Origin: Novosphingobium pentaromativorans US6-1
Lineage (GTDB): Bacteria > Pseudomonadota > Alphaproteobacteria > Sphingomonadales > Sphingomonadaceae
Assembly (NCBI RefSeq): GCF_000767465.1
Contig: NZ_CP009294.1
Location: forward strand, 124,001 to 188,000
Direction: 5' to 3'
Length of the DNA: 64,000 nucleotides
In this document: in pieces, positions 5,499 through 44,681 of the stretch
Numbering within the stretch: position 1 is the first letter of the stretch
Layout: every line of letters begins with the position of its first letter
The notes under the pieces: model-generated
The model's database searches: none
The model's input: only the letters and a program-made list of their open reading frames with translations
Told to the model about the DNA's origin: nothing
Position numbers and translations under genes: made by a program

Positions 5499-5811
5499 GA
5501 GGCGGAACCTAGCGCCCTCGCCCGCCCGCGCCAACCAGCCTCACCGCTTCCTCCACTGGCCCCGATCGTGACCCGAGAGGGCCGGCATTCATGCCGGCGA
5601 GTTTGGGTGGGCGGCGGTGCGACAGCGCCGACGCGCGCCCTAGCGAGTAGAGCGGGTCGCCGCGGGGCCCGCGTGGGGCGCGGGCGCCGGGGTGCCCATT
5701 CCCCTCTTCACCTCGCCACATCCCGGCAAAACCGGTATGAATGCGCTTCAATGCGACCTGCCCGGCCCCGCTGCCGCAGGCAGAGCTGCCGAAGGGAAAG
5801 GATCCCGGCCC
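5499..5811. other. Intergenic region, nothing supported
   Basis: A 313-bp GC-rich gap between the broken nuclease and a 62-aa gene. It presumably holds the promoter of the latter, but I see no clear -35/-10 pair. Confidence 0.35.
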
Positions 5812-6000
5812 ATGGCTGAACCACAGCAAATGCCAAACGCTCTGCAGGTGGCGCGCGCCATGACGCAAGTCCTGCGCGCGAAGCTTGCCGTATTCGGTGC
5901 TGAAGAGATCATGCTCACGCGCGAGGAAGCCGCGCTGTGCCTCGGCCTTGCCGAAGGCGTGGCCGAAGGCCTGGAACAGGACACGCAGCAGGACCAGTAG
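5812..6000 (+). CDS. Small helical hypothetical protein (62 aa)
   Basis: It starts MAEPQQMPNALQVARAM and is predicted helical and acidic at the end (GLAEGVAEGLEQDTQQDQ). The ATG at 5812 has a purine-rich ribosome-binding stretch (GGGAAAGGA) about 10 bp upstream, which decides the start over a longer frame from 5692. It converges with the pentapeptide gene 17 bp downstream. No family is recognised. Confidence 0.5.
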   Translation: MAEPQQMPNALQVARAMTQVLRAKLAVFGAEEIMLTREEAALCLGLAEGVAEGLEQDTQQDQ

Positions 6001-6017
6001 GGTTCTCGGGCTGCGAC

Positions 6018-6707
6018 CTACCGGACGTTGAGCCCCAGTTCGCCGAGCAGCTGCCCAGCCTGCTCGCGCGAGATCGTCGCTCCGCGAAACAGCCCGGCAT
6101 CGACAAGGCGCAGGCCGCCGAGGTCAGCGCCGCGCAGGTCAGAGCCCTCGAAGCGCGATCCGGCGACCATTGCCTCGCGCAAGGAACAGTCCTCGAAGAC
6201 AGTTATGCGGAAGTCGCCCTTGCGCAGATCGGCACCGGACAGATCGACCCGGCGCAGGGTTTCCTTGCGGAATGAGAAGCCGGGCAGCTTTGCCGAGACC
6301 AGCAGCACTTCCTCGAAGTGGATGTGCATGGCGCGCGCCTCGGTGAAATCGGCGCCGGTGAGCTTGGAGCCGGTGAACCGGGTCGAGGTCAGGGTGGCCC
6401 GGCGCATCGCGCAATTGTTCCAGTCGCCGCCGATGAATTCGGCTTCGCTGAGGTTCGCGCCCGAGAAATTGGCGAACGGTCCCCGGCAGCTCTGCCAGAC
6501 CGTACCTTCAAGCTTTGCCCCCGCAAGATCGCTGCGCCGCAGGTTGCAGCGTTCAAAGCGCCAGCGGGTGAGGTCGAGCCCGGAGAGGTCGGCCTCCTCG
6601 AGGTCGCAGTCGACCAGTGTGCGCGGCGTCCTGCCGATCAGGCGCTCGATGTCGCTGCGCGCCAGAGTGGCGCCCGCGATGGGCTGCGAAGCGAAAAGGT
6701 CGTCCAT
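6018..6707 (-). CDS. Pentapeptide-repeat protein, Qnr/McbG-like
   Basis: 229 aa built mostly of A(D/N)LXX repeats (ADLSGLDLTRWRF, GANLSEAEF, GADLRKGDF, SDLRGADLGGL), which fold as a right-handed quadrilateral beta-helix. The length and the C-terminal helix ISREQAGQLLGELGLNV resemble the end of Qnr/McbG proteins, which mimic DNA and protect gyrase/topoisomerase IV from quinolones or microcin B17. The start MDDLFASQP at 6707 excludes an upstream frame without repeats. Whether it gives quinolone protection is inference; many chromosomal relatives have no known phenotype. Confidence 0.82.
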   Translation of the reverse strand: MDDLFASQPIAGATLARSDIERLIGRTPRTLVDCDLEEADLSGLDLTRWRFERCNLRRSDLAGAKLEGTVWQSCRGPFANFSGANLSEAEFIGGDWNNCAMRRATLTSTRFTGSKLTGADFTEARAMHIHFEEVLLVSAKLPGFSFRKETLRRVDLSGADLRKGDFRITVFEDCSLREAMVAGSRFEGSDLRGADLGGLRLVDAGLFRGATISREQAGQLLGELGLNVR

Positions 6708-16552: not shown

Positions 16553-16568
16553 ATAGCGAGCAAGGCCA

Positions 16569-17357
16569 ATGCCGAAGCCTTCGATCCGGGCCATTCAACG
16601 CCTCTACGCCATGTCCGGCAATCGCTGTGCGTTTTCCGGCTGTACTGCGCCCATCATCGAAGACAGCCCAGGGATGGCGGGCATCAACATGGGCGAAATC
16701 TGCCATATACGCGCCAGCAAGCCAGGCGGTGAACGCTATGATCCCGAACAAAGCGACGCTGAACGCCACGATTACGAGAATCTCATCCTGCTATGTCGTC
16801 GGCATCACAAGCTGATCGACTCCGACACGATTGAATTCTCCGTGGCCAAGCTCCTCGCGATGAAGCAGGAGCACGAGCAGTTGGCTGGCCGTGCAGAGAA
16901 CACAGCGGACAGGTTTTCAGCAAAGCGCCTTCTTGATGCGATGGACCGCATCACAATCCCCGACAACAAGGGCACCGTGGTCATTGCCAGCGCTGGCTCC
17001 AATGTCAGCATCCGTCAGCCGCGATCCCGTGTCACGATGGCACCTCTTGCGGGAACCATCGGTGCTGATCGCGATATGGTGCGGTACACGAAGTATCTCG
17101 CGAAGCAGTATAATGAATTCGCCTCGTGGGCTCCGCATCGTACCGAAAAATTCCGGCCCGCGGTGATATATGCAAACATCATGAAAGAGTTTGGCTCGAA
17201 GCTCGAACTCATCCCGGATGATCGTTTCAGCAGCGTCTGCGCCTACCTTCAGCAAAGAATTACGCGCACCCGGCTGGGCCGGATGCGGAATGCGGAGGGA
17301 CATCGCTGCTACGCGTCATTCGATGAGTTCTTGGACAAAGGTAAACAGCATCACTGA
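16569..17357 (+). CDS. HNH-type nuclease-like protein linked to ietAS
   Basis: 262 aa. The N-terminal HNH zinc-finger nuclease pattern is GNRCAFSGCTAPI, then CHIRA, then YENLILLCRRHHKLID. The C-terminal 150 residues are unrecognised; they include an Ile/Val-rich linker (GTVVIASAGSNVSI) and a helical end. It starts 16 bp after ietS on the same strand and so may be a third member of the operon. HNH proteins usually cut DNA. I do not know a described three-gene IetAS-HNH version. Confidence 0.78.
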   Translation: MPKPSIRAIQRLYAMSGNRCAFSGCTAPIIEDSPGMAGINMGEICHIRASKPGGERYDPEQSDAERHDYENLILLCRRHHKLIDSDTIEFSVAKLLAMKQEHEQLAGRAENTADRFSAKRLLDAMDRITIPDNKGTVVIASAGSNVSIRQPRSRVTMAPLAGTIGADRDMVRYTKYLAKQYNEFASWAPHRTEKFRPAVIYANIMKEFGSKLELIPDDRFSSVCAYLQQRITRTRLGRMRNAEGHRCYASFDEFLDKGKQHH

Positions 17358-30866: not shown

Positions 30867-31088
30867 TCAGGCCGCCTCCTTGATCTCATCCGGCAGGGGC
30901 GAACCGAGCGCAGGGTCGAATTGACGCAGCCACTTCACTGCCTGCTCGGCCTTGGCCGCCGCGTGGAGAATCGCGGTCTTGTCGCCGCGAAGGATCTTCA
31001 TCCAGTGGTGGATGTAGGAGGCGTGGCTGTCGTGAAGTTCATTCGGGAGGCCGTATTCGGCGCAGAGGGTGGCTTGGCACAGCGAGGC
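30867..31088 (-). pseudogene. ardC: Backbone ardC, 3' fragment (codons 231-303)
   Basis: Reads ASLCQATLCAEYGLPNELHDSHASYIHHWMKILRGDKTAILHAAAKAEQAVKWLRQ, the normal end of an ArdC protein. It lies directly outside the left end of the 6.6-kb recombinase element. A short frame that starts at 31151 inside the element (MKPVRK) enters it by chance. Joined to 37778-37689 and 44681-44082 it restores a 303-aa ArdC frame with no base missing. Confidence 0.85.
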
Positions 31089-31147
31089 GCAATATCCTGA
31101 CAGTCCAGCCCCAAATTGAATTGCGGCGTCATTTTTCCGAACCGGTT

Positions 31148-32050
31148 TCATGCCGCCAACTCCTCGGTTTGAGGTTGCTGGGCATGCATCCAGTCGGCGG
31201 CGACCTGGGCTTTGCTGGCGGCAGTGAAGACCGCGCGGGGATCATCCTTCAGTACGCGCAACCACGACGCCACGTAGGCGGCGTGGTCGGCACGCGGGTG
31301 ATGCGCGATACCAAGATCCGCGAGGACGAAAGATGCGGTCAGTTCAGCGCAAATCTCCTCGATCGCGAGGCTGTCGCGTTTGAACCGCTCGGCGAAATTG
31401 CGGTCGAGTCGGTGCTTCGCTCCCGTGGCGTGACCGCATTCATGGAGCAAAGTGCCGAGGTGCGCCGAAGCGTCGCGGAACGTAGCGAAAGTCGGCATGA
31501 AAATGTGATCGAGATCGATCCGGTAATGGGCCTCGTAGGCGCCTTCTGTAACCGGAATGTTCAATGCCGCGACGAAAGCCTCACCCTGCGCAATCCGCTC
31601 GCTCTCGGGCAGCATGGTAATCGGATCGGGTTCATAACCATCGATCTGCGCGAGATTGAACACGGTGAATGCGCGGGCGAACATGCGTCCAGGTCTTGCC
31701 TCGCCATCGTCGCGATCATCGTCGGCCGACGACGCGGATTGCTTCCAGAACACGACCGTGGTGCCGTGTTCGCCCTTGCGGACCTGCGCGCCCAGTGCGG
31801 CCCACTGGCGGTAGGTGCCCCAAAGGCCACTGGAATAGCCGCTGGCTTCGGCGGCGATCCACAGCGCGAGCACGTTGACGCCTCGATAGCGTTTGCGGGA
31901 AGTGACGTTCTGCGGCCGGGTGGTGGCCGCGCCGTCATGGTGCCAGGGCATGCGCCAGTCCCCAGCGCCGGTCTCAATAGCGGCAACAATCTCGGAGGTG
32001 ATACGCGAATAGACATCGGCCCGCGCCGATGCGGGGTGGGATCGGGTCAT
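31148..32050 (-). CDS. ardC: ArdC-type antirestriction protein carried by element A
   Basis: 300 aa, complete. The N-terminal ssDNA-binding domain reads ADVYSRITSEIVAAIETGAGDWRMPWHHDG, then KRYRGVNVLALWIAA and VRKGEHGTTVVFWK. The zinc metallopeptidase domain has the motif LLHECGHATGAKHRLDR with a downstream glutamate in EEICAELTASFVLADLGI. ArdC proteins protect incoming plasmid DNA from restriction during conjugation. The HE codons here are CAT GAA, not CAC GAG as in the disrupted backbone copy. It lies 44 bp downstream of the third recombinase on the same strand. Confidence 0.92.
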   Translation of the reverse strand: MTRSHPASARADVYSRITSEIVAAIETGAGDWRMPWHHDGAATTRPQNVTSRKRYRGVNVLALWIAAEASGYSSGLWGTYRQWAALGAQVRKGEHGTTVVFWKQSASSADDDRDDGEARPGRMFARAFTVFNLAQIDGYEPDPITMLPESERIAQGEAFVAALNIPVTEGAYEAHYRIDLDHIFMPTFATFRDASAHLGTLLHECGHATGAKHRLDRNFAERFKRDSLAIEEICAELTASFVLADLGIAHHPRADHAAYVASWLRVLKDDPRAVFTAASKAQVAADWMHAQQPQTEELAA

Positions 32051-32094
32051 GGCAGGTCTCCAGCGCGGACGGAGGGGAACTCTCTCCCGCTCCT

Positions 32095-34320
32095 TCAATC
32101 CGTCACCTTCAAACCGGCCTCCTCTTCCTCTCCCGCCACACCGGCATGCGGTGTGGCGGGACCCGGCGCGATCTGGGCGAGGACAGCCTCGATCCTCGCG
32201 ACTTCGGCTTGCAACGTGACCCGCTGCGGCTCGGGCAATCGCTTCTCGCGAAGGAGCGATCGCGCTTCGTCCGCCCCGCGCTGCCAGGCGGGGCGATGCC
32301 GTTCGGTGATGCAGGCGTTGGGACAGCGCCCCGGCTCGCACATGGAAATCATCGGTGCTGGCGGACCCGGCTGTGTGATCCGGTTGAGGCACAGGGCGGT
32401 TGCGGGTTCAAAGAAGCAGTCGGCCAGCGGGCCGACATGCAAAGTCCGCGCAAGGCTTGCGAGCATGGTGCGCAGGCGAGCCCGGTCGGCGATCATGGCA
32501 GGCAACGGCGCAAGCTCGCTTGCTGCGGTATCAAGCACTGTGCCGACACGGTTCGCAGCGGGGCCACCGAGACGGGCGCCGCCATGCCGTTCGTCGAAAT
32601 AGACGAGAATGTCGTCGATCTGGCCGAGCGCCCGCTGGGCTTCTATCTCGCCGCGAAATCCCGACCGGCTGCTTCCGGCATAGCCTTCGAAGGCGGCGAC
32701 ACTGGCGTGCTTGTACTGGATCATGCCTGCGATCGTTCCGAAAGGCCGGTTGGCGATATGCCAGGCGATGGTGCGACGAAACTGCCGGGTGGTGAGACGC
32801 CAGGGCGCGCCATCGGGTCCTGGCGGAATGACCGGCGCGTCGGGCGATCCGAACTGCTCGTTCAAATGATCGCGAAACCGGTTGAGCTGGCGGACGATCT
32901 CGGCGGAGACATGGGTCTTGGTGTTGGCCCGAAGCGCAAGCACCGGCCACAGCGTGGTCGTACCCCGCGCCCGTCCGGCCCGAGCGGAAAGCTGTTCGAG
33001 CACGGCGACCGCATCGGCAACCGGTGCGATCGTCACCCATTCGGCCTGCTGCCCGCCGCCACGCTTGCCCTTGTAGGCGGTGGATCTGATACGGTGGCGC
33101 AATATCGCGCCGTCTTCGCCCCGGATCACGGAAAGACAACTGCGCTTCATCGCCTGGATCTCGCTGTCGCGCATGCCCGAAAGATAGGCGCAAACGACAT
33201 AGGACGCCGCCTGAAGCATGGTCTCTTCCAGCGCCAATGCCTTGGCGTCGAAACGACTGCGCCAAGGCTGACCACTATCCGGGTCGATGGAAACAGGTGT
33301 ATCGATCCCGCCGGCTTCGGTGCCGAGTTCCGCGACCGCAGCGGCGATCAGGTCCGGTGCGCCGGTACTCAAACTGAGATGCATGGCAGGCTCGGCCTGC
33401 GCATCGACCCCGGCGTGGAGGTGGATGAGGTGATAGTTGATCGGTGGGAGCTGCGCACCGGTCAGCGGATCGCTGCGAACCGCTGCATTGTATATCCCGG
33501 TCCAGACGGGAACGCCTCGACCTTGCTTCCGCAGGGCCGCAAGGTAGGCGCTGAGCCGGCGGCGTTGCCGCATCCGGCGTTGGGCCGGATCGAGCCCGGC
33601 CTCATGTGCGAACAGCCGATTACGCCTTGCTTCGAGACGCTCAAGCTCATGTCGCGCGGCGAAAATGTCGGCAGAAAAGTGGGTCACATAGCGCAGCGAC
33701 CATGCCAGCAGCGGCGTCATGACCTCCTCTGGGATGCGCGGCGTGCGGTTCTCATTGGGAACATGCCTGGCGCCCGCGACCGAAAACGGGCTGCGTCCGG
33801 GCCACGGCTCGAAACGAAGATGAGCTGTTGGCAGGTGGCGGCGCAACTCGTGGAGGTCGAATATGATCCGCAGCAAAGCCGCAACCGCGACGGGACGGAG
33901 CCCGGCACGGCGCAGCGAGCGGGCGAAACGATCCAGCAGCGGCTGATCGACCCGCGCCAGATCGAAGCGCCCAAGCTCGACCTGGACGAAGTTGAAAAAG
34001 CGCAAGGCCCGGTTGGCCTCCCCACGCACCCCCGCGGGTTCGAGCCGGGGGCGATGGCCAGGGATATCGACGTTAAGCCGCGCATGGAGAAACTGCCGCA
34101 GGGCATCGGCGATGGCTGGGGCTTCGATGCCCCCGAAATGCACAGTAACGTGGCAGCGTCGGGCATTGTCCCGAAAAACGCCGGGCGACAGGTCCCAGAT
34201 GGGATCTCCATATCGCGACAGGTCCGCGCGATCAAAACCGGGACGCAACGGAGCGGAGATCAGAACGGGGAGCCCATCGCGCTTGTCGCCGTCACAGGCC
34301 GGTAACGGTATGGCGGTCAT
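32095..34320 (-). CDS. Large tyrosine recombinase (third gene of element A)
   Basis: 741 aa. The catalytic region lies about residues 380-600: AYLSGMRDSEIQAMK (first Arg), TTRQFRRTIAWHI (box II with Arg in place of the usual His), YKHASVAAFEGYAG (His and nucleophile Tyr). The C-terminus has a Cys pattern, ISMCEPGRCPNACI, that may bind zinc. The ATG at 34320 overlaps the previous stop (34317-34320). The altered box II may mean that it works with the other two recombinases. Confidence 0.85.
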   Translation of the reverse strand: MTAIPLPACDGDKRDGLPVLISAPLRPGFDRADLSRYGDPIWDLSPGVFRDNARRCHVTVHFGGIEAPAIADALRQFLHARLNVDIPGHRPRLEPAGVRGEANRALRFFNFVQVELGRFDLARVDQPLLDRFARSLRRAGLRPVAVAALLRIIFDLHELRRHLPTAHLRFEPWPGRSPFSVAGARHVPNENRTPRIPEEVMTPLLAWSLRYVTHFSADIFAARHELERLEARRNRLFAHEAGLDPAQRRMRQRRRLSAYLAALRKQGRGVPVWTGIYNAAVRSDPLTGAQLPPINYHLIHLHAGVDAQAEPAMHLSLSTGAPDLIAAAVAELGTEAGGIDTPVSIDPDSGQPWRSRFDAKALALEETMLQAASYVVCAYLSGMRDSEIQAMKRSCLSVIRGEDGAILRHRIRSTAYKGKRGGGQQAEWVTIAPVADAVAVLEQLSARAGRARGTTTLWPVLALRANTKTHVSAEIVRQLNRFRDHLNEQFGSPDAPVIPPGPDGAPWRLTTRQFRRTIAWHIANRPFGTIAGMIQYKHASVAAFEGYAGSSRSGFRGEIEAQRALGQIDDILVYFDERHGGARLGGPAANRVGTVLDTAASELAPLPAMIADRARLRTMLASLARTLHVGPLADCFFEPATALCLNRITQPGPPAPMISMCEPGRCPNACITERHRPAWQRGADEARSLLREKRLPEPQRVTLQAEVARIEAVLAQIAPGPATPHAGVAGEEEEAGLKVTD

Positions 34321-36104
34321 GCCCGGGCCTCGGGCGGCAGATAGATGACGGGCGGTTCTGCTGCGAGCCGGGCGCGGGCCTGCGCAACCACCTCTTCGCC
34401 GAAGGCCGGGAGAATCTGACGGATTATGCGTTCGCGGGCGTGGCCGAACTTTGTGGTCCACTCAGTCTGGCTCATGCCGGATCGCTGTTCGTCGACGAAG
34501 GCGAGAAACGCGAGGATAGCCGGCAACTTACGCGCGGTGATCACCGCGTTGCCGCAATCGAGGCAGCCCCAGAAAGGCATTGGGCAAGGCGTTCCGGCGG
34601 TTCCAAATGGGCTGGAATAGAAGCCGCCGCAGCTCGCGAGCCAAACGTCCTGTTCACCGTCGAGCAAGCAAGCCGCTGGATCATCGCGGTCCTGATCCGC
34701 GAACTGGGTTGGGCTGCGTAGCTGCTCCTCCTCGCCAGGAGGGATAATCCTTGGTCCGGTAACCGCCTCTTCAAGGGCGTCGGCGACGGCCTGCTCGTGC
34801 AGGGGGCGCAATGATGGAACATCGGCATAATGCCGCGCCGCGATCTCGACCGTGTGGCCGACAGCGAAGCGGGTCATGTGCCCTTCGGTCTTGAGATACC
34901 ACAGCGCCTTGTGCGTCTTGCGCAGGCGGGAGAGATGCAGGTAGAGCGGCTCGCCCGCATCGTCGACGATGCCATGCCGGGCGGTCCATGCATCGATGGT
35001 CGCGCGTGGATGGCGGATGCCATCGGTAATCTCGCCGGGCTGATAATAGATCCACAGGCAATCGCTGTCGTTATGGACCCGGGCCTTGGCGGTAAGCGCC
35101 AGGATGCGCCGGATCAGCCCGCCCGGCGTCGTGGAAGCGCCGTCCCGCACCCGGATGGTCTTGTGTTCGGCACCATGCGCGCGAAGCTTGGTGTAGGCGA
35201 TCTCCACCGTCCCGCCCGTAGCGTTACGCAGGCAATCAATGGTGAGCGACTTGCAGCACTCGAGCTCAAGTCCGGTCTCCAGCGAAAGCAGGACGAGCAG
35301 CGGCACGATATCGACGGATGTGAGGTAGTGGGCACCGTGCAGTGCCATCGCCAGATCCGGGCTGGCGATGCTCCGGTTCCAGCGCATGTGATAAAGCGAC
35401 ATCCACTCGGCATCGCGATGCTTCAGGACACCTCGCGCCTCAATCGCCCGGTGGACCTTGGCGGCAACTGCTTCAAGGTCCGGCACCTCGTCAAAGAGTG
35501 GGCCAACCCGCAAGCGCGCCTCGATGGCAACAAGATCGGCGCGTGCCGCGTCGCGTAGTTGGCGCGCTACGAACGGGCTGTATGCATCGCGGGGTTGAGA
35601 CCGGACATAGGGATGCGAACTGACGTAGCGTAGCCGATCGCGCAAACCCGGATCGATGCAGCCGGGTTGATCGGTAGCCATACGGCGAAGGACGGAAACG
35701 ACCTTGGCGACAATGGTCGCCGCGTGCCCTCGCGACTTGTCCCGATCTTCGAGCCAGGCTTCAAATCCATCGATTTGGCGGGCGCGCAGGTCAGCCGGGC
35801 CATCGATACGATCGCCGGTAGAAGCAAGATAGGTAAAGAAGAGTGGCAACTGGTTGGCGTATGTCTTTATGGACGAACGGACCGTGACGGGACCACGCGG
35901 AGCGATAACCATGAGCAGCCCCCGCGCGAAGGCAAGCGCGAGTCCTCGTGGACGCAGTGTAGTAAAATCGATGAGAACCGCGCCTCCGTGCGGCGGATCG
36001 ATCGCAAAGCATAGCGTGCTCACCAGCGACCATGGATCGGCCTCAGGCGTGGATGCCTCACGCTCAAAACTGACCTTGCGCCCCTCGCGCGGGACGGCGG
36101 TCAT
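34317..36104 (-). CDS. Divergent tyrosine recombinase (second gene of element A)
   Basis: 595 aa. Its N-terminus has a SAM-like binding region (KTYANQLPLFFTYLASTGDRI). In the catalytic part box I lacks the Arg (SLETGLELECCKSL) and box II is degenerate (LSRLRKTHKALWYL), while GHTVEIAARHYAD keeps His and Tyr. A zinc-like motif (FWGCLDCGNAVI) sits near the C-terminus. This resembles TnpB-type partners that need a second recombinase. Overlaps of four bases at both ends mark a translationally coupled trio. Confidence 0.83.
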   Translation of the reverse strand: MTAVPREGRKVSFEREASTPEADPWSLVSTLCFAIDPPHGGAVLIDFTTLRPRGLALAFARGLLMVIAPRGPVTVRSSIKTYANQLPLFFTYLASTGDRIDGPADLRARQIDGFEAWLEDRDKSRGHAATIVAKVVSVLRRMATDQPGCIDPGLRDRLRYVSSHPYVRSQPRDAYSPFVARQLRDAARADLVAIEARLRVGPLFDEVPDLEAVAAKVHRAIEARGVLKHRDAEWMSLYHMRWNRSIASPDLAMALHGAHYLTSVDIVPLLVLLSLETGLELECCKSLTIDCLRNATGGTVEIAYTKLRAHGAEHKTIRVRDGASTTPGGLIRRILALTAKARVHNDSDCLWIYYQPGEITDGIRHPRATIDAWTARHGIVDDAGEPLYLHLSRLRKTHKALWYLKTEGHMTRFAVGHTVEIAARHYADVPSLRPLHEQAVADALEEAVTGPRIIPPGEEEQLRSPTQFADQDRDDPAACLLDGEQDVWLASCGGFYSSPFGTAGTPCPMPFWGCLDCGNAVITARKLPAILAFLAFVDEQRSGMSQTEWTTKFGHARERIIRQILPAFGEEVVAQARARLAAEPPVIYLPPEARA

Positions 36105-37492
36105 GACCGGAGATAATCCGGCACGCGTGCAAGCAAATCCTCGATTGCCGCATCGACAGTATCGGCGCGGGTAGCGATGTGATCGAGGTAGACCGAAGTA
36201 GTGGCAAGGCTGGAATGGCCAAGCAAGCGCTGGACCTGCTGGAGCGGGTCGCCGAGCAACTGGCGGTAGCCTTCCATGGCGCCTGCCGATGCGACCGCTT
36301 CGTTGATACGCCGCTGGATCAGCATCGCCAGCATATGCACGGCGAAGGAATGCCGGAGTTGATGAGGGCTGACGCGGACGGTAATACCGGCATCGGTGCA
36401 ACGCCGGCTCGCCCTGGCGAAGATCGCTTCCCACGAGTTGGGCAGTACCGGATGCCCGACCTCGGTAAGCCAGAGGACAGCGGCCTCGCAAGGCGCACCA
36501 TCGTCGGCGCAGATCACCAGCCTTGCCCGTTCTTCGGGAGTAACAAGCTCCATGTCCATCGTGCCGCCACCAGCGAGCTGCAGTGCGGTGGGTTCAGGCG
36601 GTGGGCGATGGATAAAGATCGGGCGGTCGATCGCCTCCCACCCTCGTCGCGATGCGAACTTGGTCACCGCCGATGCACGCTCAACCGCGATGTATGCATC
36701 GAACGCCGGCAACAGGCGGCGCGGAAGCAGCATGGTGCGGCCCCGGTCCCCCTTGGTCAGCGCCGATGGCAGTTCGACCCGGCGCTGGCGTTCCGAACGT
36801 GCATCAAGGGTGGGAATCTCGGCGGCGAGAAGGAATGAGGCTTCTTCGAGACGCAGACCGGTGGTGACCAGCAGATCGGCGAAGAGCGCGTTACGCGCAC
36901 CATTGCGGTCGCGAGCACCGGGGCGTTCTACGCCCTCGACCGTCAGGCCGCGCAGGCCGACGTCACGGAATGCATGGTAGTCGGCAAGATCGATGAAGCG
37001 CACATCGGATCGGCGCGCCGCGCGCTCATAGGCCTCATTGCGCCCGGCAATGGCGGCGCGGCGACCACCGTACGATCTTCGCCAGACCTGTCGATGGGTG
37101 AAGGGTGTGCGCTCGACAAGCCCCTCACGCTCTGCCCAGCGATAGAGCTTGTCCAGCGAGGCGACCGCGCGGTTCCATGACGACGCCGATATCCGGAAAT
37201 CCGCATCGCTGCGACGGCGGGCACGATGATAGGCGGCGACATCGTCGCCATCGGCCTGCCACACGGTCTTGCTGCGTGCTTCGGCGAGGAAGCGAACCCA
37301 GACCAGGACATCATAGCCGTGCGCCCGAAGCGAATGGCGCGACCGCGCGCCGTTCAGCGGCAGATCGAGGAAATAGCGGTCAAGGTTGGCATCATAGATC
37401 GCCTCGCCCTGCATTATCACCGGAATGTAGGTGTCCAGACCATCGGCGTTGCGGTGTTCCTGGATGACGATCGGTACTTCTGAAATATCCAC
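36101..37492 (-). CDS. Canonical tyrosine recombinase (first gene of element A)
   Basis: 463 aa starting MDISEVPIVIQEHRNADGLDTYIPVIM. All catalytic boxes are present: VTTGLRLEEASFLL, SPHQLRHSFAVHML and RLLGHSSLATTSVYLDHI with the nucleophile Tyr. It is the first gene of the trio and should supply full catalytic activity. A 13-bp inverted repeat lies upstream (37566-37626). Confidence 0.92.
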   Translation of the reverse strand: MDISEVPIVIQEHRNADGLDTYIPVIMQGEAIYDANLDRYFLDLPLNGARSRHSLRAHGYDVLVWVRFLAEARSKTVWQADGDDVAAYHRARRRSDADFRISASSWNRAVASLDKLYRWAEREGLVERTPFTHRQVWRRSYGGRRAAIAGRNEAYERAARRSDVRFIDLADYHAFRDVGLRGLTVEGVERPGARDRNGARNALFADLLVTTGLRLEEASFLLAAEIPTLDARSERQRRVELPSALTKGDRGRTMLLPRRLLPAFDAYIAVERASAVTKFASRRGWEAIDRPIFIHRPPPEPTALQLAGGGTMDMELVTPEERARLVICADDGAPCEAAVLWLTEVGHPVLPNSWEAIFARASRRCTDAGITVRVSPHQLRHSFAVHMLAMLIQRRINEAVASAGAMEGYRQLLGDPLQQVQRLLGHSSLATTSVYLDHIATRADTVDAAIEDLLARVPDYLRS

Positions 37493-37565
37493 AGCTTGCC
37501 AGTCCCTCCCCCGGACCCCCTCCCGAATCCAGGACGCGCCCGTTGCGCGCCTGCGGGACGGTGGC

Positions 37566-37626
37566 CATCAGGCCGGACTTCGCCAGCTTATGGGTAGCGC
37601 TACGTCCGGCCTGATGCCCCCCTGCG
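37566..37626. repeat. Inverted repeat upstream of the element A recombinases
   Basis: CATCAGGCCGGAC at 37566-37578 and GTCCGGCCTGATG at 37614-37626, perfect 13-bp arms with a 35-bp centre. It lies between the element end and the first recombinase start, the same position as the dyad at 37866-37901 in element B. Confidence 0.65.
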
Positions 37627-37688
37627 TCGTACCCGGATCATACCGTTCAATGGAGCGTCAGACACGGTGCAGACTGTCCAGATAATGC

Positions 37689-37778
37689 GACGATTTCCTC
37701 GAACGCGTAGGCATCGTCCCCGAAGCGTTTGCCGAACTGGCGATTGAGCCGCTTGGGAGCCCCCGTGGCGTGACCGAG
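37689..37778 (-). pseudogene. ardC: Backbone ardC, 30-codon middle fragment
   Basis: Exactly 30 codons reading LGHATGAPKRLNRQFGKR, then FGDDAYAFEEIV. It lies between the right end of element A and the left end of element B. The first residues complete the HExGH zinc site begun by CACGAG (HE) at the element B border. It shows that the two elements entered one gene 90 bp apart. Confidence 0.85.
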
Positions 37779-37865
37779 CTCGTGGTAGGTCCCATCCATA
37801 ACGTGTCCTTTCTGTCCTCTTCTGCCAATCAAGCAGGACACATGATCCGAGCCCCCTCTTCTCTG

Positions 37866-37901
37866 CCGGACAGGGAGGGCCCGAGGGCCCTCCCTGTCCG
37901 G
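37866..37901. repeat. 36-bp near-perfect palindrome upstream of element B recombinases
   Basis: CCGGACAGGGAGGGCCC (37866-37882), GA, then its exact reverse complement (37885-37901): 17-bp arms with a 2-bp centre. It lies 19 bp before the first recombinase ATG. No T-run follows. It could be an operator, or a hairpin that limits read-through into the recombinase operon. Confidence 0.8.
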
Positions 37902-37920
37902 TCGCAATCGTGGAGTGGGT

Positions 37921-39054
37921 ATGGCGCAGCTGCTGTTCTCGACGTCGGCGTTCCGGCCTGACGGGTCATCGGTGGAGGATGTCCCCATCCTCCTCGACGA
38001 ACGGATGCGGCTCATCGAACCAGTCTGCGCATGGCTGATGCACATCGCACTGGTGCGCGGCAGGACGCGCAGCTCCCAAACCTGGCGAACCTATGGCGAA
38101 GCCCTCTACGACTGGTGGCAGACGCTCGAGGCCAATGGCTGGGCGTGGAACGAAATCGGCCCGGGCGAGCTTGCCGCCTATCGCGACGAGATGCTCCGGC
38201 CTCGCGGCGACAGTGGCAGGCCTCTCGCGCGCAGCACAATCAACGGGCGCCTCAGGACCATAGGCCGGTTCTACCGGTGGAGCGTTGCCAATGGGCTGAT
38301 GTCGCAGGTCCCGTTCGCGGGCCAGGAAATCTCACTGTCGCGCAGCCGTCCGCTGGGCTTCCTTGCCCACGTCGATGCTAACGGCGGCCGAGCTCAGGCC
38401 AACGAGCTGACCATGCGGCACGTGCCCATGTTGCCACGTCCGCTGGTGCCGGAAGCGATCCGGCGCATCATGGCCGGAATGTCGGCACGCGACCGGCTGA
38501 TCGTCGAGTGGGCAGTGACAACGGGTATCCGCCGGATGGAAGTCGCGGGTCTGACCGTGCGTCACCTGAAGAGATCGGGGAGCGAACCGATGATCCCGGT
38601 GCAGATCGACGAAACCAAGGGCGGGCGCTCGCGGATGATTTATCCCCCGGCCCCACTGATCGACCGCACCCGAGCCTATGTCCGAGAGGAGCGGGCCATC
38701 GTGGTCCGACGCACTGCGGTGAATCGAGCTGATCGTGACCCCGAAGCTCTGTTCCTGACCTGTCGGGGGCAACCGATGAAACCTCGCAGGATCGGCGCGA
38801 TGTTCACGGCGGCTGCCGAAGCGGCAGGCGTGACGGCGACGTTCCACGCGCTGCGGCATACCTTCGCCGCAGCCATGCTGCGGTTCCTGCAGCGCGAAGC
38901 CCAAACCAATCCCGAACTCAACCCTCTGCTCACGCTGCAGGTGTTGCTCGGCCATGCCGACCTGGCGACCACAGCGGTCTACTTGCGCGTCGTCGAAACC
39001 GATCTGTCGGTGATCGAGGCCTCAGTCGATGATCTCTATGCGGCGCTGCTGTAA
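37921..39054 (+). CDS. Canonical tyrosine recombinase (first gene of element B)
   Basis: 377 aa from ATG 37921 (a GTG two codons earlier is possible). It has an N-terminal core-binding domain and a complete catalytic domain: VTTGIRRMEVAGLTV, TFHALRHTFAAAML and LLGHADLATTAVYLRVVE with the nucleophile Tyr. This is similar in size and order to TnpA of Tn554-like elements. Its stop overlaps the next ATG (TAATG at 39052-39056). Confidence 0.92.
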   Translation: MAQLLFSTSAFRPDGSSVEDVPILLDERMRLIEPVCAWLMHIALVRGRTRSSQTWRTYGEALYDWWQTLEANGWAWNEIGPGELAAYRDEMLRPRGDSGRPLARSTINGRLRTIGRFYRWSVANGLMSQVPFAGQEISLSRSRPLGFLAHVDANGGRAQANELTMRHVPMLPRPLVPEAIRRIMAGMSARDRLIVEWAVTTGIRRMEVAGLTVRHLKRSGSEPMIPVQIDETKGGRSRMIYPPAPLIDRTRAYVREERAIVVRRTAVNRADRDPEALFLTCRGQPMKPRRIGAMFTAAAEAAGVTATFHALRHTFAAAMLRFLQREAQTNPELNPLLTLQVLLGHADLATTAVYLRVVETDLSVIEASVDDLYAALL

Positions 39055-40829
39055 TGCCGCGCGGGAAAAAGGACTACCGGGTCGCGCCGTCACCCGAGCC
39101 GCTCATCGGCAATCCAGGAGCGCTGCTCGTCAATGTCGTCGATGCCGACGGCAAGCTCGAGTGTTCGTTCGACTTCTCGATCTTCGCCGAGCGGCCCGCA
39201 ATGGCCGCCGAGTGGGCGCTCGCCTTCCGCCACCACTATGCCGTCAGGCAACCGGCAAACAGGGTGAGCGTCTATCGGAACCTGAAACTGTGGTTCGCCT
39301 TTCTGGGCGAGCATTACACCAGCATCGCGGCGACGCGCGATGTCGATACGGGCGTGCTCAATGCGTTCATCGTCTGGCTCGGCACCAGACCCTGGAGCAA
39401 GGGCACGCGTTACACCGTCTGGTCGATCATCAAGCAACACATGGCTTGGCTCAAACGCAACCGGCCCGACCTGGTCCATCCCGATCTCGAGATCCCGTTC
39501 AACCCGTTCCCCCGTAAAAATGCCGAAGCGCGCCAGCGCGAGGCGTTGAGCCGCCATGAAATGGAACGCGTACTCGCCGCCGCCCGAAAGGACATCGAGG
39601 CAGGCTGGTCGTTGTTCGAGGAGGGGCGCTGCGCGCTTGCTCGCGTCGACCGGGCGGTGATCGCCGCCGAGCCGGACCTTGCGAAACTCGATCTCGGCGA
39701 CATCGGCGTGATGCTCGCAGTGATCGACGTTCGGTTCGGCGGCGTACCGCCCAAGGTCCAAGACATGTTGCGCAAGGGTGCCGAGCTCTGGCGGCTCCAC
39801 TTTGCGACGATCCGTCATGGCGGCATGGGCGGGGTTGCGGGCCGTCTGTTCGCGCTGCCCGACACGATCGTCGCTTACATGATCGCTATCGGTGCGCAGA
39901 CCTACGCCAACACCGAGGCGCTCAGGCTGATGCGGCGCGACTGCATGGGCGAACATCTGCTGCTCGAAGGGCGGGTCATGGTCAGCTGGCATAAGGGGCG
40001 GGCGGGCCGCGAACAACGGCGCAGCTTCCTGCGCGACAAGAAGTTCTCGGTACCTGTGCTGATCGAGCAGGTGCTGGCGATGACCGAAAGGCTGGTGCCC
40101 CATGCGCCGATGCCCGACCGTGATCGCCTGTTCCTCACCGGCATCATACGTGCGTCGCGCAGCACGGGCGTGATCCCCGATTACCTGGCTTCGAAACTGA
40201 CCCGGCGGTTCGTGAATCGTCACGACTTGCTCGACGATAGCGGCAAGCCGCTCAAGCTGACACTGGCGGCGCTGCGCGCATCGGGGCTGACGCTCGCGCA
40301 CGAACGGCTTGGGCACGATATCCTGAAAACCCAGGCGCTGGCCAACCATGCCACTCCCGATACGACGCAGCGCTATGTGGATCGCCCCAGGGTCCGAAAG
40401 GCGCAGGCTATGGCGATCGGCAAGTTGCAAGCGCGGTTCGTCGAGGTGGTGCGCGGCGATGCCGAAACCCCGCCCGAAACGGAGGCGCTCCCCGATCTGA
40501 GCAATGCGACCGCAGCAGGCTTCATCTGCCGCGATCCCGTGGCTGGCGTCGCCGAAGGCCAGCGCAAGGGCGAGCTGTGCACAGCCTGGCTCGGGTGCTT
40601 CACCTGCCCCAATGCCGTGATCCCGCTCGAGGAGGACGTACTGACCCGTCTCCTTGCGACGCGGGTTGCGCTCACCGACGGTCGGGCCGGTATGGCGCCA
40701 GAGCGCTGGCGGCGGCTCTACGCGCCCAAGTTGGAAATCCTCGAGCGCGATATCTTGTCCCGGTTCCCCGATGCGATGCTTGAAGCAGCAGCAAGGGCGC
40801 CGCTGCCGCAACTGCCACCGATCGAATGA
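39054..40829 (+). CDS. Divergent tyrosine recombinase (second gene of element B)
   Basis: 591 aa. The catalytic boxes are degenerate: GAQTYANTEALRLMRRD lacks the first Arg, while LANHATPDTTQRYVDRP keeps the terminal Tyr. A Cys motif, CTAWLGCFTCPNAVI, near the C-terminus matches that of the second recombinase in element A. It resembles TnpB-type partners in Tn554-like elements. It overlaps both neighbours by 1-4 bases. Confidence 0.82.
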   Translation: MPRGKKDYRVAPSPEPLIGNPGALLVNVVDADGKLECSFDFSIFAERPAMAAEWALAFRHHYAVRQPANRVSVYRNLKLWFAFLGEHYTSIAATRDVDTGVLNAFIVWLGTRPWSKGTRYTVWSIIKQHMAWLKRNRPDLVHPDLEIPFNPFPRKNAEARQREALSRHEMERVLAAARKDIEAGWSLFEEGRCALARVDRAVIAAEPDLAKLDLGDIGVMLAVIDVRFGGVPPKVQDMLRKGAELWRLHFATIRHGGMGGVAGRLFALPDTIVAYMIAIGAQTYANTEALRLMRRDCMGEHLLLEGRVMVSWHKGRAGREQRRSFLRDKKFSVPVLIEQVLAMTERLVPHAPMPDRDRLFLTGIIRASRSTGVIPDYLASKLTRRFVNRHDLLDDSGKPLKLTLAALRASGLTLAHERLGHDILKTQALANHATPDTTQRYVDRPRVRKAQAMAIGKLQARFVEVVRGDAETPPETEALPDLSNATAAGFICRDPVAGVAEGQRKGELCTAWLGCFTCPNAVIPLEEDVLTRLLATRVALTDGRAGMAPERWRRLYAPKLEILERDILSRFPDAMLEAAARAPLPQLPPIE

Positions 40830-42655
40830 CCGCGCACCCCCGCCCGCTCGCAATGTCGTCGTCATGGGAGGATGCGCCGATCTCCCCCTGGAGCCGGTTC
40901 GGCGACGGTGAATGGCTGCTCGATATCCGCACCGCAGGCCGCCGCGCGGATCAAAACCGGTTCAGTTGGGCCGCTCCCATGCCGGAGTGCTCCAGGATCA
41001 GCGGGCACGATCATTCCCACCTGATCCGCGCGGCGAAGCACTTCCTGTGGTCGATGCACTTCGATCCACCGCGTGGACGCAAACGGTCCTCAGCGACATC
41101 GCTCCAGCAGAAGGCGATGCTGCTGCGTCCGATTATCGGGTGGATGGCGGGCGAAGGGCTCAGCCGTTTTGCCGAGATCGACCCTGCTGCGGTCGAGCGG
41201 TTCTGCACATGGTTGCGCAGGCGACCATCGCGCGCCGGCCATGACTCGATCAGGCCCGCCACCGTCACGAACTATCTGCTCGCAATCAAGGATCTCTACC
41301 GGCAGCGTTCAAAGCTGGCCGATGCACCGCTGATCGACCCGTTGCCGCTGGAAACCACCTATGAGGCCGCAGGCCACACCCGCGCCAGCAAGGGCTCCAT
41401 ACCGTTCATCCCGGATCGGCAAGCAATCGCGATCCTGAACGAAGCCTTGCGGTGGATCGAGAAGCACGGCGAGACGATCGTGATGGCCGAAGCGATCCGC
41501 CTCGAAGCGCGGGAGCGCGGGCTTGCGACCGGCGTCTTCCGGCAAGCCTCTTATCACGTGCGCAGGGCGCTGCGCGCCGCGAGGCTGAGCGATCCATCGG
41601 GCGAACGCCTCGACGGGGCCTATGCGGCGCGGCAAGCGGCGGTCCACCTCGTCGAAGCCTGCTATATCGTGATCGCCGGGTTCGTTGGCATGCGCGTCAG
41701 CGAGATCCTGTCGATGAAGGTCGGGGCAATCGAGTATCGCCCGATCGGCGAGACCGGGGTGGATCAGGCCTATGTGGTGGCACGGTTGTTCAAGACGGTC
41801 GATGATCCCGATGGGCGGGTCGAACGCTGGACGGCACCCGCACCGGTGGCCCGCGCGGTCGATCTGCTCGAGCGCCTGAGCGCACCCCTGCGCGCTGCCT
41901 CGGGGCGTGAGGAGCTGTTCCTGGTGAAGAACACGCAATACGGCGAGATCGTGCCGGTGACCCACATGCACATCGCCTGGCGCATCAACGACTTTGCACG
42001 CCACGTCGGCGTCCCCGACCATGACGGGAAGCCCTGGCAGTTCAGCACGCACCAGTTCCGCAAGACCTTCGCCCGGTTCGTGGCTCGTCGCGACCGCACG
42101 CAGCTCCTGGGCCTCGCCGATCACTTCAAGCATGCCTCGGTGGCAATGACCGCGCGCGGTTACGTCGGCAGCGACTTCGACCTGCACAGCCTCATCAATC
42201 ACGAAGCGCGTGCCGAAACCGCTGCAGCGCTGGACCGCCTACTTGCCGCAAGGCAGCTCGGCGGCAAGATGGGTGAACGCATCGTCGCCCGCAACGCGCG
42301 GTTCCGCGGCCGCGCAGGCGAGCAGGTGCGGCGGGACTACGTGGCGTTCATCCTCGAAGAGACGGACCTGCGCATCCATGCCTGCGACTATGGCTGGTGC
42401 GTGTTCCAGCAGGAAACTTCCCGCTGCGGCGGCGAACTCGAACCCGACGAAGCCGGACGCGCGCCAGCGGTCTGTCTCTCGTGCGCAAACATGGTGATCG
42501 AGGCGAAGCACGGTTCCTATTGGCGGGATCGCAGGGAGCGCAATGCTGCGCTTCTGCCATGTGCCAATCCCATGACCGCAGCCGTGCTGAATGAAGCAAT
42601 CGGACAATGCGAGCGGGTGCTCGCGCAAATCGGAGATGACCATGGGCAAGAGTGA
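40826..42655 (+). CDS. Large tyrosine recombinase (third gene of element B)
   Basis: 609 aa with complete boxes: GFVGMRVSEILSMK, FSTHQFRKTFARFV and HFKHASVAMTARGYVGSD. The C-terminus is Cys-rich (CDYGWCVFQQETSRCGG, then CLSCANMVIEAK), probably a zinc finger. The start overlaps the preceding stop by four bases, and its 3' end overlaps the TnpC-like gene by 14 bp. Confidence 0.88.
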   Translation: MTAHPRPLAMSSSWEDAPISPWSRFGDGEWLLDIRTAGRRADQNRFSWAAPMPECSRISGHDHSHLIRAAKHFLWSMHFDPPRGRKRSSATSLQQKAMLLRPIIGWMAGEGLSRFAEIDPAAVERFCTWLRRRPSRAGHDSIRPATVTNYLLAIKDLYRQRSKLADAPLIDPLPLETTYEAAGHTRASKGSIPFIPDRQAIAILNEALRWIEKHGETIVMAEAIRLEARERGLATGVFRQASYHVRRALRAARLSDPSGERLDGAYAARQAAVHLVEACYIVIAGFVGMRVSEILSMKVGAIEYRPIGETGVDQAYVVARLFKTVDDPDGRVERWTAPAPVARAVDLLERLSAPLRAASGREELFLVKNTQYGEIVPVTHMHIAWRINDFARHVGVPDHDGKPWQFSTHQFRKTFARFVARRDRTQLLGLADHFKHASVAMTARGYVGSDFDLHSLINHEARAETAAALDRLLAARQLGGKMGERIVARNARFRGRAGEQVRRDYVAFILEETDLRIHACDYGWCVFQQETSRCGGELEPDEAGRAPAVCLSCANMVIEAKHGSYWRDRRERNAALLPCANPMTAAVLNEAIGQCERVLAQIGDDHGQE

Positions 42656-43085
42656 AGTGGACCCACGCGGACAATCGGCAGCGAGGAGCTACCGGGCGGC
42701 TCTGGCGAGGCTGGTTCGCGGCGAGGGTCGGCATCCCGACCACGCCGGGCGGGTGGTGCGGATCACGCCGGCCTCGGTGGCCCGCGAGGCCGGACGCAGC
42801 CGCAATCCACTTTATACGACACATCGCGACATCCTCGATGAAATCGAAGTGGCTGCTGAAGGACCGACGCCTATGCGGGACCTTGCGGCCCGGATCGCAG
42901 AACTCGAGGCCGCACTTGCGCATCTGCGCTCCGATGCGCGCCGACATGGTGAGGAACGTCGCGAACTCGCCAGCGAGAACATGACACTGCTGCACCGGGC
43001 GAGGAGCGCTGAGGATCGGCTCACGGCGATCCTGCGGCGAATGCCTGAAGCCCCCGCCACAGGCGCCATCACGCGGCCGCGCTAA
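42642..43085 (+). CDS. DUF6262/TnpC-like accessory protein of element B
   Basis: 147 aa. A small helix-turn-helix-like part (VVRITPASVAREAGRSRNPLYTTHRDILDEIE) is followed by a coiled coil (DLAARIAELEAALAHLRSDARRHGEERREL). This is the layout of TnpC/DUF6262 accessory proteins, which help orient recombination in Tn554-like elements. The ATG at 42642 is preferred because GGAG lies 6 bp upstream; ATG 42636 is possible. It converges with ardC and overlaps it by 17 bp. Confidence 0.72.
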   Translation: MGKSEVDPRGQSAARSYRAALARLVRGEGRHPDHAGRVVRITPASVAREAGRSRNPLYTTHRDILDEIEVAAEGPTPMRDLAARIAELEAALAHLRSDARRHGEERRELASENMTLLHRARSAEDRLTAILRRMPEAPATGAITRPR

Positions 43086-43968
43086 TCTGCTCCGGTTGCC
43101 GGGCATGCATCCAGTCAGCCGCCGCCTGGGCTTTGCTGGCCAGCGTGAAGATCGCGCGAGCGTCGGCCTTGAGCACGCGTAGCCATGACGCAATATAGGC
43201 CGCATGGTCCGGTCGCGGATGATGCGCGATACCAAGATCGGCCATGACGAGTGCGGCTCCGAGATCTGCGATCGCCTCCTCCGCTGCGTATCTGTCCGAC
43301 CCGAACCTGCCGGACAGATCCCGGTCGCAGCGGTGGGCTGCTCCTGTGGCGTGCAGGCCTTCATGGAAAAGCGTGCCATAATAAGCGGCAGGCTCCCTGA
43401 ACTGAGCGAAGGGTGGCATCTGCACGCGATCTTCCGAAGGAATATAATACGCCTCGTTGCCGCCATGCCGACACTCAATGCCAAGGTTGGCCCAGAAGGA
43501 ATCGGCGTTCTGTAGCCGCGCATTGTCGGACAGGAGATCGATGGCTGGCGGCGCATAGCCATCGACCTGGGCCTCATTGAAAACGCTGTAGCCACGGGCA
43601 AACATGCGAGCGCGACCACGCCCCTCCTGCTCGTCGTCCCCATCTTCGGCATCCTCGCCGCGCTGGTTGATCTTCCAGAAGACGATGGTCGTCGCCTGCT
43701 CGCCCTTGCGGACCTGGGCGCCAAGCGCCTGCCACTGGCGATAGCTCGCCCAGCGCCCGGAGCAGTAGCCCGCGGCCTGCGCCGCGATCCACAGACTGAG
43801 GATGTTGGATCCCCGGTAGCGCTTGCAGGTGCCAGCGTTGACTGGCCGCGACGTCGCTGAGCCGTCATGGTGCCACGGCATGGTCCAGGAACCTGCCCCT
43901 GCCTCGATGGCTGCGACGATCTCGTTGGTGACGCGTGTGTAGATATCCGTGCGTTCGGTGCTGCGCAT
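43069..43968 (-). CDS. ardC: ArdC-type antirestriction protein carried by element B
   Basis: 299 aa, complete, starting MRSTERTDIYTRVTNEIVAAIEAGAGSWTMPWHHDG. The ssDNA-binding domain is followed by the zinc motif LFHEGLHATGAAHRCDRDLSGRFG, with a Glu in AAEEAIADLGAALVMADLG. The HE codons are CAT GAA, as in element A and unlike the disrupted backbone copy. It closely resembles the element A ArdC (DHAAYIASWLRVLK is shared). It is the last gene before the right end of element B. Confidence 0.92.
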   Translation of the reverse strand: MRSTERTDIYTRVTNEIVAAIEAGAGSWTMPWHHDGSATSRPVNAGTCKRYRGSNILSLWIAAQAAGYCSGRWASYRQWQALGAQVRKGEQATTIVFWKINQRGEDAEDGDDEQEGRGRARMFARGYSVFNEAQVDGYAPPAIDLLSDNARLQNADSFWANLGIECRHGGNEAYYIPSEDRVQMPPFAQFREPAAYYGTLFHEGLHATGAAHRCDRDLSGRFGSDRYAAEEAIADLGAALVMADLGIAHHPRPDHAAYIASWLRVLKADARAIFTLASKAQAAADWMHARQPEQISAAA

Positions 43969-44081
43969 GATCAGGACTCCCGTCCTGAAATCGCAAGGCT
44001 GGCCCTGCGATTTTGCGGCAACAGCAGGGCGCAAAGGCCATCGACGGCCCTCGAAACGAGGACACTTGCGATGTTACATAC

Positions 44082-44681
44082 CTCGTGACAGCGGGTCGAG
44101 AAGTACGCCTCGATCGAATGGAACACGTTTGGCGACGGCAAGGTGACGGTGTCGGTGCCCGGCGAGTAGTGCGCGCTGTCGCCGCCGTGAACGACACGGA
44201 TCGGGATCGCGTCGAGGAAGGCCTGCACCCCGGCCGAGAGCTCGCCGATCACCTTAGGATCGGGCGGCTCGGGGTAGTAGTGCGGCGGCAGCCCCTCGAT
44301 CTGCGAGGCGTTGAACACGTGGTTCCACTTCATGAACCGGATCGTCTTCTCCGTCGTTTCACCGGTCTCGCGATCGGTGTCGGTCTTGCGCGCCGAGGAG
44401 TAGAACACACTGAACGAGCCGCTCTCGCCCTTGCGGACATGCGCGCCGAGTTCGAGCGCCTGGCGGAAAGTCATCCAGTAGGGGCTGGCATAGCCCCGGC
44501 TTTCGGCGACCGCCCAGAGGAAGAATGTGTTGATCCCAGAATAGGGGACCCCGTTGTGGCGCAGCGGCCGCGTGCTGGTCGAGGTCCAGGGCTTAAGCCA
44601 CGGGGCGGTGCCGGCGGCGATCTTTTCGAGGATCAGGTCGGTGATGACCTGCGCGACGTCGGGTTTGGGGTGACGGGTCAT
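44082..44681 (-). pseudogene. ardC: Backbone ardC, 5' fragment (200 codons)
   Basis: It starts MTRHPKPDVAQVITDLILEKIAAGTAPWLKPWTS and keeps the whole ssDNA-binding domain (NGVPYSGINTFFLWAVAESRGYASPYWMTF, then HVRKGESGSFSVFY). It reaches NVFHSIEAYFSTRCHE, where element B begins. An unspliced product would run on into element B (VCNIASVLVSR) without the metallopeptidase half. The ATG overlaps the GHKL stop by four bases, so the gene belonged to that operon. Confidence 0.87.

Follow-up and report, generated by a model that had tools for sequence, protein, structure and literature searches.

We analysed a 64,000-nt stretch of the genome of Novosphingobium pentaromativorans US6-1 (contig NZ_CP009294.1, positions 124,001 to 188,000; hereafter the window), in which one ardC gene is cut into three pieces by two mobile elements, A and B, each carrying a trio of recombinase or recombinase-like genes and an intact ardC of its own. 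The broken gene is called the resident and the carried genes the cargo; coordinates are given in Table 1. Our data make it quite probable that A and B are two related recombinase-trio transposons that specialise in plasmid ardC genes and bring a replacement, translationally coupled in the case of A, for the gene they break. This is supported by empty sites in related plasmids, recurrence of insertion at the same codons, the lineage of the cargo genes and the selection acting on them, the fit between the stop of the broken frame and the start of the cargo, the cores at the element ends and a nest of successive insertions.

The closest matches to the window are large sphingomonad plasmids. A first-pass annotation, made from the letters alone, had claimed that the three resident fragments add up, with nothing gained or lost, to a 303-aa ArdC. 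The joined gene is indeed stop-free (912 nt, 303 aa), and the same gene stands whole, also at 303 aa, on pCADAB1 of Sphingomonas sp. ERG5, a natural empty site flanked by a ParB/ATP-binding gene pair on one side and small plasmid genes on the other. The ERG5 gene matches the window pieces at 91.8, 89.9 and 92.2% over query positions 2–660, 654–752 and 750–1032, so that, apart from a few bases of shared core, the joints are exact. The joints are unbroken, too, in Croceicoccus p1 (locus L005), where the ardC copy is frameshifted, and in Novosphingobium ES2-1 p3 (L013), where similarity begins at about codon 7 and an IS256 element adjoins the gene start; the empty site of element A is also present in L006. 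In the ardC tree described below, the joined window gene groups beside the ERG5 and ES2-1 genes, indicating that the three fragments belong to one ardC lineage. The annotation had proposed this search for empty sites, and its claim would have failed if related replicons differed in sequence at the joints or if the fragments stemmed from more than one ardC lineage; mixed lineages and a chance join are both ruled out by the ERG5 matches and the tree.

ArdC here comprises an ArdcN and an MPTase-PolyVal domain with an HExxH motif, and its protease family has been described as combining HExxH with a second motif, (E,H)xx(A,F,T,S,G) (PMC7213743). Element A is inserted at the His-Glu codons of HExxH, and element B 90 bp beyond it, at the Val-Ala codons of the second zinc-site motif (EExVA); the split resident still codes for an ArdcN domain. 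Both inner ardC genes are intact, as annotated, and have the same orientation as the gene they break. The element A cargo adjoins the 5′ half of that gene and the element B cargo its 3′ piece. The resident ATG itself shares ATGA with the stop of an upstream open reading frame (ORF), that is, its start is coupled.

The annotation had further advised looking for other trio elements with ardC at one end, and such elements were found in a range of replicons. Loci were scanned with our own ArdC profile and seven element proteins. Plasmid records, chosen for spread with Agrobacterium plasmids left out, were taken from three match lists (13 of 21, 5 of 147 and 9 of 196); searches of 396 genomes each gave 4 and 15 positives, and a scan of genome contigs gave 17 loci. 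Loci with at least 60% identity in protein 2 were counted as A (23 loci: window, L007, L009, L072, L081, L103 and L083–L099), and those with about 51% or more as B (32 loci); L061–L067, L068–L071, L074, L079 and L080 lie outside these counts, L073 is part of L081, and L081 and L103 hold one and the same A element, on two plasmids of one strain. At all 15 A loci with a readable flank, an ardC piece stands at the HExxH codons, and the cargo is a full ardC in 14 of them, that of L091 being cut by the contig end. The other eight (L085–L088, L090, L092, L093 and L098) are unreadable, the locus ending at or near the element edge; L085, L088 and L090 have a full ardC, and L086, L087 and L098 are incomplete. 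Twenty-seven B loci are readable, and at 24 of these the element lies inside ardC at the B site (window, L008, L010–L012, L016, L017, L046, L047, L049, L051, L052, L054–L058, L075, L077, L078 and L101–L104), while L014 lies elsewhere and L076 and L100 interrupt another gene; the five unreadable loci end at a contig boundary (L048, L050, L053 and L060) or have N at the left end (L059). The cargo is a full-length ardC at 22 of the 24, including L049, whose ardC is shifted by some 6 kb and was located in L082. Insertion into a gene of which a homolog is carried is thus found in the window, at 14 of 15 readable A loci and at 22 of 27 readable B loci. The double hit, with A followed by B about 90 bp on, recurs in Mesorhizobium MesoLjLa2 (L103).

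The short cores that flank the elements follow the same codons. The A core is CAYGAR (His-Glu) at both ends, the two ends differing in 3 of the 14 loci in which both are present. The B core is GTNGCN or near it. Within ardC, 19 of 20 B left cores specify [V/I/C]-Ala (L016 has one extra base) and 17 of 17 right cores [V/I/C/A]-Ala; the two ends differ in 14 of 17, 11 of these at wobble positions only. At four further B loci, all right cores and three left cores fit, the left core of L103 being one base short; in L014, which lies outside ardC, neither core is ardC-like. As the ardC residues encoded by the cores are the same at either end, the donors would have been ardC genes if the donor-core rule published for Tn552-II and the strand-biased circularizing integrative elements (SEs) holds. 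The earlier homes of these elements were therefore probably ardC genes as well, and the 6-bp cores offer a record of past homes.

At 15 of 15 junctions with a 5′ piece (A elements and the divergent A′ described below), the stop of the broken gene's frame lies −4 to +2 nt from the cargo start. The host frame stays open for 12–33 codons past the profile match, about 17–36 codons inside the element, and, past a purine-rich stretch, ends in TGA-NN-ATG, TAA-TC-ATG or an overlapping ATGA. In L097 the frame runs across a stretch of N, and at one junction of L081 (R to D, see below) the start, missed by the automatic list, was read from the sequence context (TGACCATG). The tails vary in length and sequence over at least five end types, and the stop/start spacing is constant. 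When five of the ends were shuffled, a comparable stop arose in 4.4–8.0% of cases for each. Judged from these junctions, the A replacement ardC seems arranged so as to be translated from the very gene that is broken. On the other side, 13 of 18 B right junctions (window, L008, L010–L012, L017, L046, L047, L052, L057, L058, L075 and L078) have an ATG or GTG that overlaps the cargo stop and is in frame into the 3′ host piece; in L054, L055 and L077 the frame is open but its start codons come about 240–330 bases past the cargo stop, and L016 and L051 are without a read-through start. At 8 of 11 A right ends, those of the sphingomonad type, AAAGGA is followed by an ATG in frame with the 3′ piece.

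A maximum likelihood tree of 75 ardC rows (L103 and L104 left out) placed 26 B and 16 A cargos in one group (100/99); long branches meeting were flagged by the program, and the deep order of the tree is unreliable. The group also holds the ardC of L064/L065 and 2 of the 25 residents: that of L094, a long branch, and that of L099, which falls among the B cargos, so that an A element there has hit a B-type ardC. The remaining 23 residents lie outside in several groups, some beside intact plasmid ardC genes. Fifteen of the 16 A cargos form one subgroup (L097 stands with some B cargos), showing that cargo and recombinases mostly travelled together; the B cargos form three subgroups. Of 28 cargo pairs compared for the ratio of nonsynonymous to synonymous substitution rates (dN/dS), 25 were computable and 17 of these gave 0.055–0.11, which points to purifying selection on the cargo genes, and HExxH is kept in 42 of 42 cargos. 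GTNGCN is absent at the B core of all 40 scorable cargos (2 of 42 could not be scored) and is present in most residents hit by B. This absence may reflect protection from B or simple descent; TGCGCC cores do get used (window right core, L077 left core). Immunity of the cargo through loss of the A core is impossible: the His-Glu codons are always CAYGAR, and element-borne ardC genes are hit in L081 and L099.

A nest of insertions is found in Mesorhizobium MesoLjLa4 (L081). In gene direction it reads: the resident ardC R to HExxH; an A left end; ardC D to residue 33; the left end of A′; ardC C′ to HExxH; an A left end; the intact ardC C; A genes; the A right end; the rest of C′; A′ genes; the rest of D; a B right end; and the remainder of R, which an IS66 element has split in turn. 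Among R, D, C′ and C only C is whole, and the stop of each broken frame lies two bases ahead of the next start or overlaps it. A′ uses a third site, the Pro-Trp codons near residue 33 (core CCCTGG). D (L081, 14786–28301), flanked by a left end of A and a right end of B, has 33 N-terminal aa that are 91% identical to Mesorhizobium A cargos and a C-terminal part about 77–82% identical to B cargos. Such a hybrid is what one would expect if the two cargos of a double hit like that of the window had recombined and both recombinase sets had been lost, and the nest as a whole reads like a break-and-replace cycle repeating itself.

Two rhizobial B-like elements (L076, 6390–12434, and L100, 6389–15078) interrupt a small gene (MT...EELR|...), and each brings along a gene of some 57 aa resembling the one it breaks; of 2000 shuffles, 0 and 2 attained the alignment score. 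Thin as a base of two loci is, this suggests that the rule concerns the target, whatever gene that is. The case of L076 was recognised by reading element ends; a paralog search within 15 distant or odd loci gave several paralogous ORFs and no clear split target, and missed it.

The three large proteins of A and B are pairwise homologous in the same order (A1-B1, A2-B2 and A3-B3; 99.7–100% probability in profile comparison), so that the two elements are distant cousins. The first-pass annotation had spoken of two independent elements 90 bp apart; they are separate and each has a complete ardC, but they are not unrelated. A small fourth gene is found in A only. In each trio, the first gene alone is recognised by Pfam as a tyrosine recombinase, A protein 3 being a weak match, and profile comparison of A1 with A2, A3, B2 and B3 gave no support for a relationship. 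Weak Pfam matches, database names and published analogues make proteins 2 and 3 of both elements putative recombinases. Further related trios occur in the same genome (C1:1708336–1725841 and C3:282988–284790; the window lies on C4), one of them B-like with ardC in the opposite orientation.

The annotation knew of no described class of element that destroys a host ardC and supplies its own. For ardC this stands as far as our search went: the literature matches listed for ardC as a term include no such element, which is weak evidence of absence. It does not stand for the principle. The Tn554-related transposons Tn553, Tn7702 and Tn552-II of staphylococci target yolD, or a gene like it, both on chromosomes and on plasmids, and each has a yolD-like homolog of its own, for which complementation or rescue has been proposed in two papers (PMC10763498, PMC12486829); Tn552-II keeps att copies inside its target-like gene (PMC12486829). 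A and B resemble these in being tyrosine-recombinase transposons that carry a homolog of the target and a 6–7-bp core from the donor. They differ in target, hosts and gene set (tnpABC in the staphylococcal group), and the accessible parts of those papers mention neither translational coupling nor nesting. A break-and-replace rule has thus been published for yolD, and ardC as target and cargo is new as far as searched.

In gene layout, element A matches GInt (ginABCD), which has three integrase-like genes and a small fourth, then cargo, inserts site-specifically, excises as a circle with all four genes required and is proposed to make 6-nt staggered cuts (PMC5385486). The four A genes adjoin on the + strand with overlapping ends (37915–43085), gene 1 alone lying above the Pfam integrase cut-off. 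GInt has flanking imperfect direct repeats of 10–17 nt; at the A ends the 6–7-nt core is what is clearly repeated. The GInt sites described lie near gene ends (the 5′ end of an ABC transporter gene, the end of ssb with the product unaltered, and the end of a ribonucleotide reductase gene) (PMC5385486); in Alphaproteobacteria, no ginC-ginD block was found by Idola et al. SEs share imperfect terminal inverted repeats, four core genes and a 6-bp footprint with the target core at one end and the donor core at the other, and are reported from Gammaproteobacteria only (PMC10214605); we liken our elements to them by ends and layout, that is, the inverted repeats of B and the cores that differ between ends (14 of 17 in B, 3 of 14 in A). 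RIT elements of alpha- and betaproteobacteria have three adjacent overlapping tyrosine recombinase genes, and one lies in radC of an integrative and conjugative element (PMC3414803). The three B genes overlap, with Pfam support for the first gene only and a third protein homologous to the weakly matching A protein 3; RITs are described at about 3.5 kb, against 6594 bp with ardC for element B. A copy of the target gene is not mentioned for GInt, SE or RIT in the sections available (PMC5385486, PMC10214605, PMC3414803). The ArdC of R388 has the same ArdcN and metallopeptidase domains (PMC7213743); what differs here is that ardC is both split as a target and carried as cargo.

Many site-specific elements are known to do little harm because they insert at the ends of genes or into tRNA genes. 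A and B instead land in codons for catalytic residues, which cannot change without loss (His-Glu can be coded only by CAYGAR); the price they seem to pay is a replacement whose translation is tied to that of the host gene. We propose that the recombinases would make a circular copy that integrates at the core; the target core would then remain at one end and that of the previous home at the other, as published for Tn552-II and SEs. Transcription and translation of the resident would pass to the element ardC by termination and re-initiation, and the plasmid, retaining a complete ArdC, would tolerate the insertion. The new ardC would again be a target for other families, giving nests, and recombination between cargo genes would give hybrid ardCs. 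This accounts for the ardC pieces and the several ardC genes side by side on the plasmids examined. The cost of insertion should be directly testable, since a small change between the stop and the start codon suffices. With somewhat less assurance, we also favour a broader rule, in which trio-recombinase transposons on plasmids generally break and replace: each clade would take as its core those codons of a conserved plasmid gene that can change least, carry a homolog of that gene and have an end shaped for re-initiation. In ardC this would have happened at three sites (Pro-Trp at codon 33, HExxH and the glutamate helix), with serial replacement of residents by element-borne ardC genes, and in a rhizobial clade it would concern a small gene.

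Several observations weigh against the break-and-replace reading of A and B. As the end types are related, the stop/start cases are not independent, and the percentages from shuffled ends are not to be multiplied. The element B cargo has no comparable fit to the 5′ fragment, and the Mesorhizobium-type A right ends (3 of 11) have a stop just before the 3′ part, so that re-initiation into that part is not general. Among the computable cargo pairs, 8 of 25 had dN/dS of 0.12–0.32 (four with dS of 0.15 or less). Only the last 32 residues of ardC are left in the A elements of L092 and L093; the B elements of L101 and L102 lie inside ardC without ardC cargo, and two genes of L102 match no Pfam family; L014 has an ardC cargo and is inserted outside ardC; and L064/L065, one distant element in two genomes, has ardC in the opposite orientation with no split ardC seen. 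Moreover, the metalloprotease activity of R388 ArdC is not needed for antirestriction, and the protein with an altered site is still effective in conjugation (PMC7213743). A hit may therefore not abolish antirestriction, and the cost of insertion could be smaller than supposed. The annotation's view that the elements keep antirestriction working is favoured, in the form that they keep ardC working, by recurrence, the stop/start fit and purifying selection, but whether antirestriction is lost on insertion is uncertain given R388 and the preserved ArdcN domain. That selection acts on whole cargo genes would mean that the whole ArdC protein matters in nature.

It is possible, though unlikely, that ardC is useful cargo in itself, helping entry into restricting recipients, and is the target only because such plasmids offer it. 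ArdC does help R388 enter P. putida (PMC7213743), L014 and L064/L065 keep an ardC away from any split ardC, and the KA1 and L084 elements carry further DNA; however, the cargo orientation is fixed and its start is fitted to the stop of the broken frame, L076 and L100 hit another small gene and carry its look-alike instead, and the yolD parallel argues the other way. We consider it improbable that the carried ardC serves as a landing pad or homology tract, re-creating the target or an internal att with rescue as a by-product: element-borne ardC genes are hit (C′ and D of L081, and L099) and recombine (hybrid D), and Tn552-II has its att copies inside the target-like gene (PMC12486829), but neither purifying selection on the protein nor fitted starts would be needed, and the absence of GTNGCN from 40 of 40 scorable cargos runs contrary to upkeep as a B target. 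The annotation's other suggestion, a swap of antirestriction specificity instead of restoration, agrees with cargo and resident ardCs being separate lineages, yet nothing in the anatomy requires it, and we give it very little weight. Hardly credible is a capture artefact, in which an element beside ardC took up its surroundings in one clonal event. Element copies in close plasmids are related by descent, but the residents are scattered over the tree, which rules out clonal spread of a single event, while the cargos cluster; most sites have both resident fragments and a whole cargo, and the cores vary between sites.

Table 1 Features of the split ardC region in the window (positions are those of the window)
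Feature	Position	Strand	Remarks
Resident ardC, 5′ fragment	44082..44681	-	Codons 1–200; ends at His-Glu codons of HExxH
Resident ardC, middle fragment	37689..37778	-	30 codons
Resident ardC, 3′ fragment	30867..31088	-	74 codons including stop; coordinates of the first-pass annotation
Element A, body	37785..44081		6297 bp
Element A, left core	44082..44087		CACGAG (His-Glu)
Element A, right core	37779..37784		CACGAG
Element A, tyrosine recombinase 1	37915..39054	+	379 aa; Pfam
Element A, protein 2	39054..40829	+	591 aa; relatives named site-specific integrase
Element A, protein 3	40826..42655	+	609 aa; weak Phage_integrase match, below Pfam cut-off
Element A, gene 4	42591..43085	+	Small protein, 164 aa; GinD/Srap place by position only
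Element A, cargo ardC	43069..43968	-	299 aa, intact
Element A, coupling segment	43966..44081	-	Host frame enters element; TGA two bases before cargo ATG (TGATCATG)
Element A, right end	37779..37799	-	AAAGGA, then ATG GAT GGG ACC TAC in frame with CACGAG and host 3′ part
Element B, body	31092..37685		6594 bp; imperfect terminal inverted repeats TTATCTGGACAGTC / GACTGTCAGGATAT
Element B, left core	37686..37691		GTCGCA (Val-Ala)
Element B, right core	31086..31091		TGCGCC (Cys-Ala)
Element B, tyrosine recombinase 1	36101..37492	-	463 aa; Pfam
Element B, protein 2	34317..36104	-	About 595 aa, start set by comparison with pNL1; homolog of A protein 2
Element B, protein 3	32095..34320	-	741 aa; homolog of A protein 3; relatives named integrase
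Element B, cargo ardC	31148..32050	-	300 aa, intact
94-aa ORF	30867..31151	-	ATG overlaps cargo stop (ATGA); in frame through B right end into host 3′ fragment

Some A elements carry additional DNA. That of KA1 pCAR3 (L007, 8084–10789) has an ars operon between gene 4 and ardC, and those of L084, L090 and L094 have about 1.7–2.8 kb extra at the same place; in all of these, ardC remains at the element end. Compact trios of shorter integrases, RIT-like by size, stand beside B elements in L016 (1–3355) and L075 (1–2683). In the A-like locus L079 of Methylocella, short ORFs on both sides (about 5000–6700 and 16000–16600) are alike, possibly another copy of a target.

Residents are also split in other ways. 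The resident of pNL1 (L008, 9244–12526) is broken near codon 132, where a reverse transcriptase gene is found, and that of S. medicae pMl5 (L101, 3393–6413) near codon 90, where the annotation gives a group II intron reverse transcriptase. ardC is thus used by elements of a third kind as well. In the window, a 625-aa ORF shortly downstream of the split ardC (27382–29259, - strand) resembles a group II intron reverse transcriptase by eye.

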